Assembly (NCBI GenBank): GCA_958295525.1
Contig: OY282355.1
Coordinates: forward strand, 1,339,504 to 1,403,503
From: an uncultured Dehalococcoidia bacterium
Lineage (GTDB): Bacteria > Chloroflexota > Dehalococcoidia > Lucifugimonadales > Australimonadaceae
Reading direction: 5' to 3'
Length of the DNA: 64,000 bases
Positions 38,003 through 48,809 of this stretch are shown in pieces. The position numbers and the translations under genes are program-made. Every line of letters begins with the position of its first letter. The first letter of the stretch is position 1. Under the pieces are notes generated by a model, which had not been told where the DNA came from, searched no databases, and saw only the letters and a list, made by a program, of their open reading frames with translations.

Positions 38003-38040
38003 TCAAGCGCTCCTCAGCGTTGTCAAGCGATTTTCAAGCG
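38003..38040. promoter_or_regulatory. Three phased TCAAGCG motifs
   Basis: TCAAGCG starts at 38003, 38023 and 38034, spacings of 20 and 11 bp, about two and one helical turns. A TATAGT box (37998-38003) adjoins the first. This could be a binding site for a dimeric or oligomeric regulator, but the target gene is unclear because hairpin repeats lie between it and the next plus-strand gene. Confidence 0.3.
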
Positions 38041-38074
38041 AATCTGAGCGCCAATCCGCAGACTCGGCGGATGC

Positions 38075-38255
38075 GCCGCCTGCGGGGGAATGACGGGACA
38101 AGGGGCGAGATTCCCGCCTACGCGGGAATGACGGGACAAGGGGCGGGGTTCCCGCCTACGCGGGAATGACGGGACAAGGGGCGGGATTCCCGCCTGCGCG
38201 GGAATGACGGGACAAGGGGCGGGATTCCCGCCTGCGCGGGCAGGGCGGGACACGG
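38075..38255. repeat. Hairpin repeat cluster 9
   Basis: Five copies at about 38-bp spacing with GGGACAAGGGGC linkers, in the divergent gap between the GlcG-like gene and the kelch-like lipoprotein. The stretch from 37789 to 38002 shows no gene. Confidence 0.88.
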
Positions 38256-40317: not shown

Positions 40318-40440
40318 CAGGGGCGAGGTTCCCGCCTATGTGGGAATGACGATAGGGGGCGAGATTCCCGCTCTACGCGGGGATGACGATGGGGGGCGTC
40401 ATTCCCGCCTACGCGGGAATGACGGAGGAGGAGGAGGAGG
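40318..40440. repeat. Hairpin repeat cluster 10
   Basis: Three degenerate hairpin copies followed by a GGA-rich stretch, between the convergent kelch-like lipoprotein and rnc genes. Confidence 0.75.
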
Positions 40441-40469
40441 GGATGACGGGGGCAGGGGGTAGAAGGCGT

Positions 40470-41180
40470 TTAAGGGAAGAAGTTTGGGGCGGCGAGGGCG
40501 CTTTTGGCGGCGGCTTGCTCGGCTTCGGATTTTCGGCGGCCTTCGCCAACGCCGGCCTCGCGGCCATCCACGAGCACGCGGACGGCGAAGGTTTTGGCGT
40601 GCGGCATCCCTTCGTCGGCGACGACTTCGTAGACGGGGAGAGGAAGCCCCCGGCTCTGCGCGAGTTCCTGCAAGGCGGTTTTCGCGTCGCGTTCGGCGTC
40701 GGCGCGGCCTTCGGGCTCGAGCATAGGGGCAAGCCATCGGAGAACGAAGGCGCGGGCGGCGTCTTCTCCGGCGTCGAGGAGCACCGCGCCGGTGACGGCC
40801 TCGAGAGCGGCGGCGAGGTTGCGGTCGCGGTCGCGTCCGCCGCCGCGCTCCTCTCCCTGCCCCAGCAGGAGATGCTCGCCGAGCCGCATTGCCCGCGCCG
40901 CTTCCGCGAGCGTTTCGCCTCGGACGAGGGCGGCGCGGGCGCGGGTCAGTTCGCCTTCGCCGTAGCGGGGGAATCGCGCGTAGAGTTCGCGGGCGGCGAC
41001 CCAGCCGAGGAAGGCGTCGCCGAGATACTCGAGGCGGTCGTAACTGGCGAGCGCGGGGTCGGGCTGCTCGTTGAGGTAGGAGCGGTGGACGAGCGCCTGC
41101 CGGAGCAAGCGCTCGTCGTTGAATTGCGCGCCGAGCGAGCGTTGGAGGGCCTCGAGCGCCTGCGGGCCGGGGTTAGTCAA
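40470..41180 (-). CDS. rnc: Ribonuclease III with an atypical active site
   Basis: 236 aa. RNase III cleaves double-stranded RNA in rRNA and mRNA maturation. The signature DRLEYLGDAFLGW near residue 49 provides the first acidic pair, and the dsRNA-binding domain (DAKTALQELAQSRGLPLPVYEV...) is complete. In the second active-site segment, normally L-A-D-x-x-E-A, this protein reads L-A-A-A-L-E-A: Glu is kept but the Asp that binds Mg2+ (E. coli D114) is Ala (codon at 40809-40811). Its start overlaps the stop of the DsbA-family gene by 8 nt, so the two are coupled. Confidence 0.92.
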   Translation of the reverse strand: MTNPGPQALEALQRSLGAQFNDERLLRQALVHRSYLNEQPDPALASYDRLEYLGDAFLGWVAARELYARFPRYGEGELTRARAALVRGETLAEAARAMRLGEHLLLGQGEERGGGRDRDRNLAAALEAVTGAVLLDAGEDAARAFVLRWLAPMLEPEGRADAERDAKTALQELAQSRGLPLPVYEVVADEGMPHAKTFAVRVLVDGREAGVGEGRRKSEAEQAAAKSALAAPNFFP

Positions 41181-41811
41181 AGACGCCCTTGGGCCAGGGG
41201 GGTTGCGGGCGCTTGACCTCGCCGACGAACGCCTCGTCGCGCATCAGCCCCAGCAGGGAGTTGAACGCGCTGAGGGCTTGCTGCGGCTCGCGCGGCCTGA
41301 TGAGTTTGAGGAAAGCGGAGCCGCCGCCCTCGAACACGAACGTAGGCGTTCCGAACACGCCGACGGCGTCAACGGCGTGGGCGTGGCTCGCGGCGATCTC
41401 GTCGAGCGTGGAGCGGTCGCGCAGGTCGGCGTCGAAGAGGTCGGCGTCCAGCCCGGCCTCTTCCGCGAGCGTTCGGAGGACGGCCTCGTCGTTGAGTTCG
41501 ACCCGGTCTTGGTGGCGCGCCCGGAGGAGGAGGAGGAGAAACGAGCGGAGGGCGTCCTCGCCTTGCCGTCGCGCGGCCTGCCCGGCGCGGAGCCCCCAGA
41601 GGCTGGGGTCGAGGCCGTCGTCGGGCTCGTCCCAAGCGCGGTAGTCGGGCCCGTTCTTCTGGTTCACCTGCGCGAGGGAGAAGGGTCTCCAGGTGACTTC
41701 CAGCGGCGTCTCGCCGCCCATCGCGTCTTTCACCATATCCAGCCACACGGCTGCATTGAAGACGAAGGGTCAGCGGAAGTCGTAATAGACGTCGGCCTTC
41801 GGCGTCGCCAT
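41173..41811 (-). CDS. DsbA-family oxidoreductase with in-frame TGA at the active-site Cys (candidate selenoprotein)
   Basis: With TGA read through, the frame gives 212 aa: MATPKADVYYDFR-U-PFVFNAAVWLDMV and on. The DFRxPF context is where DsbA/2-hydroxychromene-isomerase-like proteins have their catalytic Cys, and VFGTPTFVFEGGG supplies the cis-Pro loop. The frame is intact on both sides of TGA (41772-41770), and GAGGAGG stands at proper distance before ATG 41811. A hairpin with a GUGU loop begins 16 nt after the TGA. Sec insertion would make it a selenoenzyme acting on thiols. The alternative is a nonsense mutation or base error, with GTG 41748 giving a truncated protein lacking its active site. 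Confidence 0.75.
41740..41753 (-). promoter_or_regulatory. Bacterial SECIS-like hairpin
   Basis: Read on the minus strand: 16 nt after TGA comes CAGCC (41753-41749), loop GTGT, and GGCTG (41744-41740). A G-G mismatch and two more pairs can extend the stem. Bacterial SECIS elements lie about 16-37 nt after UGA and need a G in the first two loop positions; this hairpin meets both conditions. Confidence 0.6.
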
Positions 41812-41889
41812 AGGCGCTCCTCCTCGAAGTTGCTGCGCGCATTGTACGCGCCCGCTATACTTGCGGGCAAACGATTTTGGGGGAGCGCC

Positions 41890-43173
41890 GTGGTGGATTT
41901 TCGCCCGTTCCGAGCAGTGCGGTACGCCGAGAGCGCCGGCCGGCTGGACGACCTGATTTGTCCGCCGTATGACGTTATTGGGCCTGACGCGGAGCGCGAC
42001 CTGCTGGCGCGGAGCCCGCGCAATATGGTTCGGCTGGAGTTGGCGGAGCCGCGCGGGGAGGTCTCCCCGTCGGGCCACGAAGCGCGCTACGAGGGCGCGG
42101 CGGCGGCGCTGCGGGAGATGCTGGCGTCCGGCGCGCTGACGCGGGACGAGGAGCCGGGCTACTATCTGCTGCGGCAGCGGTTCTCCATAGGCGGGGCGGA
42201 GCGCGAGAGGCATTGCCTGCTGGGGGCGCTGCGGCTTGAGGAGTTCGGCGCGGGCGTGCTGCCGCACGAGGATACGGCGCCGGGTCCGAAAGCGGACCGG
42301 CTGGCGCTGATGCGGGCGTGCCGCGCGAACTTCAGCCCGCTGATGATGCTCTACAACGACGCGGCGGGCGCGGTGGGCCGGACGCTCGGCGAGGCGGCCG
42401 CGGGCGCTCCCGACGCGGAGTTCGCGGCGGACGGGCAGCAATTCGCGCTTTGGACGATTCGGGACGCCTCGGCGGCGGGCGCCATCGCGGAGGCGCTGGC
42501 CGACGAGCCGGCGTACATCGCGGACGGGCATCACCGTTATGAGACATCGCTGGCCTACCGCGCCGAGGCGGGCGAGGGCGCCGATTTCACGCTGACGGGA
42601 CTCATCGCGTTCGACGACCCGGGGCTGCTGATTCAGCCGTACTACCGCGTCGTGCACGGCGCGACGGCGGCGCAGACGGCGAAGATGAACGAGTTGCTGT
42701 CGCTGTATTTCGTGTCGCGGCCTTCGGGGACGCCCCCAGGAGACGCCGGGCAGTTGGACGCGGTGACGGCGGCGCTGGGGCAGGGGCAGGCGGCGCTGGG
42801 GGTGGTCGAGCGCGGGAAGCCGCCCCGCGTGCTGACGCCCGCCAACGACATTATCCCCGAGCCGGACGCGGACGCGCCGCCGGAGACGCAGGCGCGGTCG
42901 GTGGAGGCGTTCGCGCTGCAGGAGATGCTGCTGCGCCCCGTGTTCGGCGACGGATTCGCGGAGCGCGTGGCCTACGTTCACGACGGGGCGGAGGCGATGG
43001 CGATGGCGGAGGAGAGCGAGGGGCGGACGGCGTTTTTTATGAAAGGCGTTCCGCCGGACGTGTTCCGCGCGATCGTGGGGGCGGGGCTGCGGCTGCCGCG
43101 CAAGAGCACGTACTTCCATCCGAAGTTGCCGAGCGGCGTGGCGATCAACCTGCTGGACGGAGACTCCCTGTAG
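41890..43173 (+). CDS. DUF1015-family protein
   Basis: 427 aa. VDFRPFRAVRYAESAGRLDDLICPPYDVIGPD at the N-terminus is diagnostic of DUF1015; GVLPHEDTAPGPKADRLALMRACRANFSP and IADGHHRYETSLAYR are the other conserved blocks. Family members include predicted serine kinases (SbnI-like) and ParB-related ATP users, but function here is unknown. GGGGGAG precedes tandem GTG codons at 41890 and 41893; either may start. TATACT (41856-41861) sits in the loop of a small CCCGC/GCGGG inverted repeat and is a likely -10. Confidence 0.85.
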   Translation: MVDFRPFRAVRYAESAGRLDDLICPPYDVIGPDAERDLLARSPRNMVRLELAEPRGEVSPSGHEARYEGAAAALREMLASGALTRDEEPGYYLLRQRFSIGGAERERHCLLGALRLEEFGAGVLPHEDTAPGPKADRLALMRACRANFSPLMMLYNDAAGAVGRTLGEAAAGAPDAEFAADGQQFALWTIRDASAAGAIAEALADEPAYIADGHHRYETSLAYRAEAGEGADFTLTGLIAFDDPGLLIQPYYRVVHGATAAQTAKMNELLSLYFVSRPSGTPPGDAGQLDAVTAALGQGQAALGVVERGKPPRVLTPANDIIPEPDADAPPETQARSVEAFALQEMLLRPVFGDGFAERVAYVHDGAEAMAMAEESEGRTAFFMKGVPPDVFRAIVGAGLRLPRKSTYFHPKLPSGVAINLLDGDSL

Positions 43174-43902: not shown

Positions 43903-43944
43903 GCGGCTATGCTCCTTTCGATCCGGCGTTGCGCGGCGGCGCTT

Positions 43945-44130
43945 GCGCGCCTCTGGATTCCCGCCTTCGCGGGAATGACGGGGCAGGGGGCGGGATTCCC
44001 GCCTTCGCGGGAATGACGGGACGGGGCGGGATTCCCGCTTGCGCGGTCAGGGCGGGACAAGGGGCGGGATTCCCGCCTACGCGGGCGGGCGCTTGCGCGC
44101 CTCTGGATTCCCGCTTGCGCGGGCGGGCGC
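43945..44130. repeat. Hairpin repeat cluster 11
   Basis: Five hairpin copies, two preceded by GGCGCTTGCGCGCCTCTGGATT modules, between the alaX-type and MmgE/PrpD genes. Confidence 0.85.
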
Positions 44131-46208: not shown

Positions 46209-47093
<885 letters not shown>

Positions 47094-47095
47094 CC

Positions 47096-47923
47096 ATGGA
47101 TAAGGGCATAGCGCTGGGGAAACTGCAGGCTTTGGTGGGGCGCGACCTCCGCCAAGTCGCCGAAGAGCATGGCGTAACCGTTTGGGACGGCGGAAAGATG
47201 AACAAGGGCTGGGCAGGCCACGCGGTGGAGCGTTACTTGGGGCTTCCGCTCAATTCGTCGCAGAACCCGAACCTGGGCTCGTGGGAACTGAAGGTCGTGC
47301 CGCTCACCGTGTCGCCGGACGGCGCTTGCGCCGTGAAGGAGACGATGGCCATCACGATGCTCGACCCCAAAGAAGTTTGGGCCAAACCCTTCGAGGAGAG
47401 CCACCTGTTCACGAAACTTCGCAAGATCATCGCCGTGGCGCGGACGCGGGAGGACGCGGCGGAGTCGCGCTCCATCTGCAAGAGCGTTCACGCTTTCGAC
47501 TTGGAGGAGACCGCTCTCTACGCGCAGGTCGCGGACGACTACGAAACTATCCGCCGCGTCGTGAGAACGGACGGCTTTGACGCGCTCACGGGGGGACTCG
47601 GCGTGTACGTGCAACCGCGAACGAAAGGCCCGGGGCGCGGCAGCGTGTCCCGCGCCTTCTACGCGCGAAAGGAGTTCGTCGAGTACATCGCAGGCTTGAA
47701 GGCCAGCCCGCGCTTGGCCAGCCGACTCGCCTCTTCCGATTGTCCGCTGCACGCCGGGCACGAGAACGCCGCCGCGCGCCAACCGCTGGACGAGCGCATG
47801 GCGCGTTTGGCGCGCAATCAATCGGGAGCGGGCAGGCACAAGTGCCCTTACTGCGCCTACGAGCAAGGCTACCGGCAGGCGATAGACGACATCTTGGCGT
47901 CGGCTTCCGAACGGCGGGGATGA
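47096..47923 (+). CDS. MutH/Sau3AI-like restriction endonuclease partner
   Basis: 275 aa. KGWAGHAVERYLGLPL followed by GSWELKVVPL (E64, K66) is the MutH/Sau3AI-type core, and a later TKGPGRGSVSRAFYARK segment fits the DNA-contact loop. Sau3AI and MutH cut at GATC, matching the adjacent methyltransferase. The Asp expected shortly before ELK is absent: the segment reads QNPNLGSWELK, and the nearest Asp is residue 31. The C-terminus has CPLHAGH and HKCPYC, a possible zinc site. Its ATG lies 2 nt after the methyltransferase stop, so translation is coupled. Confidence 0.78.
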   Translation: MDKGIALGKLQALVGRDLRQVAEEHGVTVWDGGKMNKGWAGHAVERYLGLPLNSSQNPNLGSWELKVVPLTVSPDGACAVKETMAITMLDPKEVWAKPFEESHLFTKLRKIIAVARTREDAAESRSICKSVHAFDLEETALYAQVADDYETIRRVVRTDGFDALTGGLGVYVQPRTKGPGRGSVSRAFYARKEFVEYIAGLKASPRLASRLASSDCPLHAGHENAAARQPLDERMARLARNQSGAGRHKCPYCAYEQGYRQAIDDILASASERRG

Positions 47924-47936
47924 ATTCCGCGGATGT

Positions 47937-48809
47937 TTACGCTATGATGCGGTAGCGCCCACCGCCTTCGAACGAGAGGATATTTTTGTTCCGAAGAAAC
48001 TGCAATTGCTGGCGAATTTTCGCCTTTATGTTGCGGTTTCTCGGGTAAAGCGCCGCTAGTTCCACCGCAAACCGCTCATGGAACGCTTGCGCGTTGAACG
48101 ACCGGGAATTCGTTTCCGTCTCTATAATTCGCACGCGAGATAGAATGGCCTCTTCCCAACCCCCGGCCGGAAGCCCTTGCTGATTTTCGAGTTGTTTGAT
48201 TGCTTGATAATCAGCGGCAAGGCCATCGGGAGGTTCGGGGAAAAAGGGAACGGACATAGCTTTGCGCCGCAGTTCTCTGTAGGCGTCAACATATTCCATG
48301 GTCGGCGTGAAGCAGCCAGCGTGCGTAACTGCGGCGTTGAACCTGTTGCCCGCCTGAATGATCACAGGGTCGTTGAGCGTTCCTGATATGACGGCGTTCA
48401 CCTCGAAATTGCGCCACAGCCCGCCTCGCGTCAGGTTGGACGATCCCATCAGCACGCGGGCGCTTCCTTCCGAAGCCGCGCAAACGTAGAGTTTCGGATG
48501 GAAGACGTGGCTTATCGCCAAGCCCCAGTCCGAATAGGCGTAGTGTTTCACGGAATCGGGGTTGCCGTCGGCGAGGCTGAGGATCTCTTCTATGGCCTCG
48601 GGATCGGTGATGCGGAAGTCCAATCCGTAGACGACCTGAATTTCGCCGCCTCTGGAAAGGACGCGCTTCAAAGAGTCCGACAATTTGGCCACGCCCGACC
48701 CCTTGACGAACGCGGTTGCGATGCGAACGTCCGACGCCCATTCCAAACTCTCCAAGAGTTCGTCGCCGGCCGGCCGCGTGGCATTGTCTATGATCCGTAT
48801 CTCCACCAT
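47937..48809 (-). CDS. Phospholipase D-like nuclease-family protein
   Basis: 290 aa. The HKD-type motif is SHVFHPKLYVC followed by VLMGSSNLTRGGLWRNFE, characteristic of PLD-superfamily nucleases and of NgoFVII-type restriction enzymes. The last 90 residues, helical and ending FLRNKNILSFEGGGRYRII, resemble a winged helix. The start at 48809 is chosen because the upstream frame is a hairpin repeat. It converges on the GATC endonuclease gene with a 13-nt gap, which suggests a local defence cluster. Confidence 0.75.
   Translation of the reverse strand: MVEIRIIDNATRPAGDELLESLEWASDVRIATAFVKGSGVAKLSDSLKRVLSRGGEIQVVYGLDFRITDPEAIEEILSLADGNPDSVKHYAYSDWGLAISHVFHPKLYVCAASEGSARVLMGSSNLTRGGLWRNFEVNAVISGTLNDPVIIQAGNRFNAAVTHAGCFTPTMEYVDAYRELRRKAMSVPFFPEPPDGLAADYQAIKQLENQQGLPAGGWEEAILSRVRIIETETNSRSFNAQAFHERFAVELAALYPRNRNIKAKIRQQLQFLRNKNILSFEGGGRYRIIA

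Follow-up and report, generated by a model that had tools for sequence, protein, structure and literature searches.

Introduction

The selenoproteins designated 'DsbA 3', which belong to pfam01323 and exhibit a UxxV motif, were reported in the 2008 ocean-metagenome survey of Zhang and Gladyshev, where Table 2 records them from five metagenome fragments in three samples (PMC2398784). The tabulated account (PMC2398784) gives neither a host nor a gene neighbourhood for these fragments, whereas both are available for the gene described here, which lies in a window (the whole stretch of DNA that was analysed) of 64,000 nucleotides. As far as the table goes, 'DsbA 3' and the window protein have in common the Pfam family, the U-x-x-V motif, a marine source and the status of predicted selenoprotein. 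With its PF01323 domain and its Sec-x-x-Val motif (UPFV), the window protein falls within the tabulated definition of 'DsbA 3', the correspondence being one of domain and motif descriptions only. This kind of selenoprotein would therefore appear to have been catalogued already as 'DsbA 3, UxxV', with the window gene as an unannotated member. In the literature, as far as its available text and tables extend, no earlier account was found of the host range of the family, its SECIS signal, the switching between selenocysteine (Sec) and Cys, or the association with rnc.

A 'DsbA-like protein form 2' (PF01323, motif DxxUP, MDP6049977.1) figures in a 2026 review (PMC13188914). Its D-x-x-U-P motif fits D11 and U14-P15 of the window protein, a likeness of descriptions only and, unlike the window protein, MDP6049977.1 is annotated as a crotonase/enoyl-CoA hydratase (PMC13188914). 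No NCBIfam model, those of the named selenoprotein families included, reaches its cut-off with the window protein, the only match being NF041057 (21.8 bits for a cut-off of 190), so that in routine annotation the gene is probably cut short at the TGA codon.

Organization of the Gene and Its Host Genome

The initial annotation had proposed a frame running from ATG 41811 to 41173 and interrupted by a single TGA at codon 14, a strong ribosome-binding site and a cis-Pro loop, all of which are borne out by the sequence: the frame ends at a TAA stop (41175-41173), TGA 41772-41770 is the sole earlier in-frame stop, GAGGAGGAG precedes the ATG, and GTPT occurs in frame (Table 1). The translated frame matches the Pfam DSBA profile (PF01323) with 55.9 bits for a cut-off of 25.6. 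The active-site motif reads Sec-Pro-Phe-Val, devoid of the second active-site Cys, and the protein contains no Cys residue in its whole sequence. From the comparative evidence presented below, the UGA at this active-site codon is almost certainly read as selenocysteine.

The host genome, assembled as a single contig of 2.51 Mb and 96.5% complete, includes the window as bases 1339504-1403503, and the nearest of its named relatives are genomes of Chloroflexota that carry the labels SAR202 cluster and Dehalococcoidia. The organism had been predicted to carry selA, selB, selC and selD, none of them in the window; the genome search located all four elsewhere in the genome, each above its curated cut-off. 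The host selD is itself a selenoprotein gene, with an in-frame TGA in SCAGUAGK, and represents a second example of Sec in this genome.

Table 1. Features of the locus (window coordinates) and selenocysteine machinery of the host (genome coordinates).
Feature	Position	Strand	Evidence
Predicted selenoprotein gene, DsbA-like fold, 212 residues, Sec at residue 14	41173..41811	(-)	frame, Pfam, alignment, predicted structure (pLDDT 93)
In-frame TGA, codon 14, motif D-F-R-U-P-F-V	41770..41772	(-)	every homologue examined has U or C in this column
Ribosome-binding site GAGGAGGAG upstream of ATG 41811	41817..41825	(-)	sequence
cis-Pro loop G-T-P-T facing the active site, residues 154-157	41341..41352	(-)	G154, P156 and T157 invariant (alignment)
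Conserved C-terminal motif GEVKRPQPPWP, residues 197-207	41191..41223	(-)	E198 and K200 invariant (alignment)
Putative SECIS apical hairpin CAGCC-GTGT-GGCTG; loop 41748-41745, G then U at loop positions 1-2	41740..41753	(-)	fold, family structure excess, pair counts
Longer minimum-free-energy stem-loop enclosing the apical hairpin	41725..41763	(-)	-13.3 kcal/mol for 45-nt stretch
rnc (RNase III); with a start at TTG 41180 it overlaps the end of the selenoprotein gene	40470..41180	(-)	same-strand neighbour in 34 genomes
DUF1015 gene, divergent, start approximate	41890..43173	(+)	neighbour conserved only within same family
selA	1854654-1855991		498.6 bits, over curated cut-off
selB	46375-48222		341.2 bits, over curated cut-off
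tRNA-Sec (selC), anticodon UCA	2236269-2236362		71.8 bits, over curated cut-off
selD	230609-231529 (L017:1483-2403)		370.2 bits, over curated cut-off

Structural Scaffold and Structural Relatives

AlphaFold2, run on the family alignment, yields a confident DsbA fold (pLDDT 93), in which helix 1 opens with Sec14 and the cis-Pro loop is formed by GTPT. The best structural match is DR2335 from Deinococcus radiodurans (PDB codes 7dk9 and 7dka; Z 23.5, 34% identity), the closest solved structure, whose lone catalytic Cys24 aligns with Sec14; the two proteins differ in the use of Cys by DR2335 and of Sec by the window protein. Only one Cys is conserved in DR2335, a protein of no reported function (PMC8945050). 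Further matches comprise Rv2466c (Z 18.7), YjbH, GST kappa (Z 16.5), FrnE (Z about 16) and HCCA isomerase (Z 15.5).

Rv2466c, a mycothiol-dependent nitroreductase of family PF22234, has its fold in common with the window protein, which gives a weak match to the PF22234 profile (35.7 bits for a cut-off of 27). Rv2466c possesses a CPWC pair and, by its Pfam name, depends on mycothiol, whereas the window protein exhibits UPFV with no second Cys, and a search of the genome for MshC returned one match, below cut-off, which is probably a Cys-tRNA synthetase. Similarly, FrnE of D. radiodurans resembles the window protein in its DsbA fold and cytoplasmic location, the latter being predicted for the window protein, but FrnE is characterized by CP(W/F)C, usually accompanied by a C-terminal CxxxxC (PMC8945050), and neither motif occurs in the window protein. 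Since UPFV lacks a resolving Cys and replaces the N-terminal CxxC in a protein free of Cys, the window protein is not a member of the FrnE (CPWC) group. The initial assignment to the DsbA family stands, on the basis of the Pfam profile and the fold, whereas the accompanying likeness to FrnE has to be abandoned in favour of single-Cys DR2335.

Proposed Mode of Action

Taking into account the predicted model, we infer a cytoplasmic DsbA-fold oxidoreductase in which selenocysteine would be the sole catalytic group. SelB and Sec-tRNA would bind the hairpin 21 nt downstream of the UGA, which would be decoded as Sec. The selenolate, located at the N-terminus of helix 1, where this helix and the cis-Pro loop would stabilise it, would then attack an electrophile such as a disulfide or an S-thiolated protein to give a mixed selenenylsulfide, subsequently resolved by an outside thiol, either a small-molecule thiol or thioredoxin. 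Such an outside thiol would be necessary because Val occupies the place of the second active-site Cys; a lone selenol cannot make an internal selenenylsulfide, so that a partner thiol would have to complete any redox cycle. Devoid of the second active-site Cys and of any other, this copy is expected to function as a mono-selenol redox enzyme, by analogy with single-Cys DR2335. We lean towards selenolate attack followed by resolution with an outside thiol, i.e., towards a mono-selenol reductase or transferase rather than an enzyme of DsbA-type oxidation.

A genuine Sec protein might equally be conceived as a small-thiol-dependent transferase or isomerase resembling 2-hydroxychromene-2-carboxylate isomerase or GST kappa, with Sec as the nucleophile or as a thiol ligand. 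The second Cys has been lost as in those Ser-type families, and both GST kappa and HCCA isomerase are found among the structural matches, but DR2335 and Rv2466c are much closer to the window protein. In addition, the genome was searched for BshC and for a GCS2-type gshA (glutamate-cysteine ligase) and neither was found, which, together with the MshC-like match below cut-off, means that no small-thiol donor was identified. With these points taken together, a transferase or isomerase of this type seems unlikely, and the mono-selenol reductase or transferase is retained as the working assignment.

Distribution of TGA and Cys at Codon 14

A search of the class covered 393 genomes, of which 92 contained a match to the protein, 38 of them in the TGA form. 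An alignment of homologues at codon 14 had been suggested in the initial annotation as a check on the Sec reading, and in all 36 aligned homologues this codon is TGA or a Cys codon and nothing else; the same alternative holds for all 23 further Chloroflexota homologues from outside the class. The 36-sequence alignment, where the letter C stands for Sec as well, has 11 invariant columns, among them the Sec/Cys column, which an invariant Pro follows; the family motif reads D-x-x-[U/C]-P-[F/W/Y/H]-[V/A], with Val or Ala across the family where a classical CxxC has its second Cys. A maximum-likelihood tree of 66 members requires nine Sec/Cys changes, at least seven of which are forced by strongly supported branches.

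With respect to the closest relatives, which belong to the same genus, the codons before the TGA display a pN of about 0.03 for a pS of 0.5-0.8 (pN/pS about 0.04-0.06), and those after it a dN of about 0.10-0.12 for a dS of 0.7-0.9 (dN/dS about 0.11-0.16). As judged from these comparisons, protein homology and purifying selection persist on both sides of the TGA.

The initial annotation had recognised a base error, i.e., a codon that is really TGC (Cys), as the possible undoing of the Sec reading. A single base would be enough and Cys homologues do exist, but the TGA is kept in independent genomes of the same genus at 83-85% protein identity, and recurs at this codon in about 40 independent genomes whose synonymous context differs; these occurrences, to which is added a downstream structure signal confined to TGA genes, argue against an error of sequencing or assembly, which becomes extremely improbable. 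A decaying pseudogene, suggested by the in-frame stop itself, can be dismissed with comparable assurance in view of the strong purifying selection downstream of the TGA, the conserved length and motifs, and the presence of the identical stop in distant genomes.

The distribution of tRNA-Sec is biased towards the TGA form, since it was detected in 35 of the 38 TGA-form genomes of the class vs. 258 of the 393 genomes overall (Fisher p 1e-4); it occurs in five of the nine Cys-form genomes of the class. It was not detected in three TGA-form genomes, which are 80% (G005), 90% (G303) and 96% (G248) complete. The use of UAG as a Sec codon was considered and rejected. The genome search had flagged a TAG in the G058 and G105 homologues and a TAA in that of G307, but these codons simply terminate the genes at their 3' ends; both G058 and G105 have TGC as codon 14, and each of the three genomes has a tRNA-Sec with the anticodon UCA.

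In one genome (G028, L070:2-454), a second DsbA-type TGA gene encodes UPWC, with Sec and a resolving Cys, besides a gene of the UPYV type, and the UxxC and UxxV types thus coexist there. Phage relatives were looked for and none was found.

The Candidate SECIS Element

The hairpin with a GTGT loop that had been noticed 16 nt past the TGA is real and occupies the position originally given, its 5' arm beginning at nucleotide 17 after the TGA (16 nt between) and its loop 21 nt after it. Bacterial SECIS elements are expected to possess a loop of 3-9 nt with a G in the first two positions, a stem of 4-16 bp, a loop located 16-37 nt after the UGA and an energy of at most -7.5 kcal/mol (PMC13188914). 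The window hairpin, with its 4-nt GUGU loop, 5-bp stem, distance of 21 nt and energy of -13.3 kcal/mol, lies within these limits. The simple bSECIS pattern fits not only all 43 TGA genes but 20 of the 25 Cys genes as well, and is therefore weak evidence when taken alone; since it does not discriminate, synonymous-codon shuffles, which part selection on the RNA from protein conservation, were used in its place. Among the 43 TGA genes, excess stability is confined to a region about 7-42 nt past codon 14 (z -1.25 and -1.59, SE 0.13-0.15), with a mean z of -1.59 (SE 0.13, n=43) for the interval of 13-42 nt, whereas the equivalent region of the 25 Cys genes gives no signal (z -0.36 and -0.16, SE 0.19 for the latter). 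A structured RNA element is under selection just downstream of codon 14, in the TGA genes only.

When a single fixed helix register is imposed on the family, 73% of the cells are paired vs. 66.5% in shuffles, and this register obtains the top covariation score among all slid registers. The pair count is only moderately above the controls because one clade shifts its register. In this UPWV sub-clade (L037-L044, L068, L069), the helix register is displaced by one base and the loops read ATTTG or AGTTG, some of them without G in the first two positions, so that its element departs from the strict SECIS rule.

The same region bears on the view that translation really ends at the TGA and that a shorter protein of 191 residues starts at GTG 41748, an open reading frame indeed listed by an ordinary ORF caller. 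Yet this GTG is part of the loop of the hairpin, and it is ATG 41811 that follows the ribosome-binding site; moreover, the short protein would lack not only the catalytic residue but also strand 1 and the beginning of helix 1, whereas codons 1-13 are conserved (pN/pS about 0.05) and the homologues are full-length proteins with Cys. A short protein is thus hardly credible, and the full-length Sec protein is retained.

Genomic Neighbourhood

The rnc gene is located directly downstream and on the same strand in 34 genomes, most of them members of the same taxonomic order and with Cys forms included, as recognised by RNase III domains. A start of rnc at TTG 41180 would give an overlap of 8 nt between the two genes of the window, and the selenoprotein gene is likely co-transcribed with rnc.

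When the window was scanned by composition for additional TGA genes, only apparent ordinary stops came up, the scan being insensitive enough to have missed the selenoprotein gene too. Short similar stretches at 38023-38253, 40383-40470 and 43907-44060, located between genes and translating into peptides of the 'PRRRESR / VIPAQAGIP' type, probably represent an intergenic repeat family.

Significance for the Family

A wider picture may be put forward, tentatively and with some doubt: a phylum-wide family of mono-selenol DsbA-fold proteins, in which Sec would be the sole redox-capable chalcogen of several Cys-free members, operating with a small thiol outside the bacillithiol, mycothiol and GCS2-type glutathione routes or on a non-thiol substrate, and with a conserved link to rnc expression.

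The class known from five ocean fragments would now correspond to a selenoprotein widespread in the Chloroflexota, among the SAR202 and Dehalococcoidia relatives. This DsbA-like selenoprotein offers a case of repeated Sec/Cys exchange associated with a measurable SECIS signal and, owing to its lack of Cys, the window protein would provide a clean system for the behaviour of a lone selenol in the DsbA fold.
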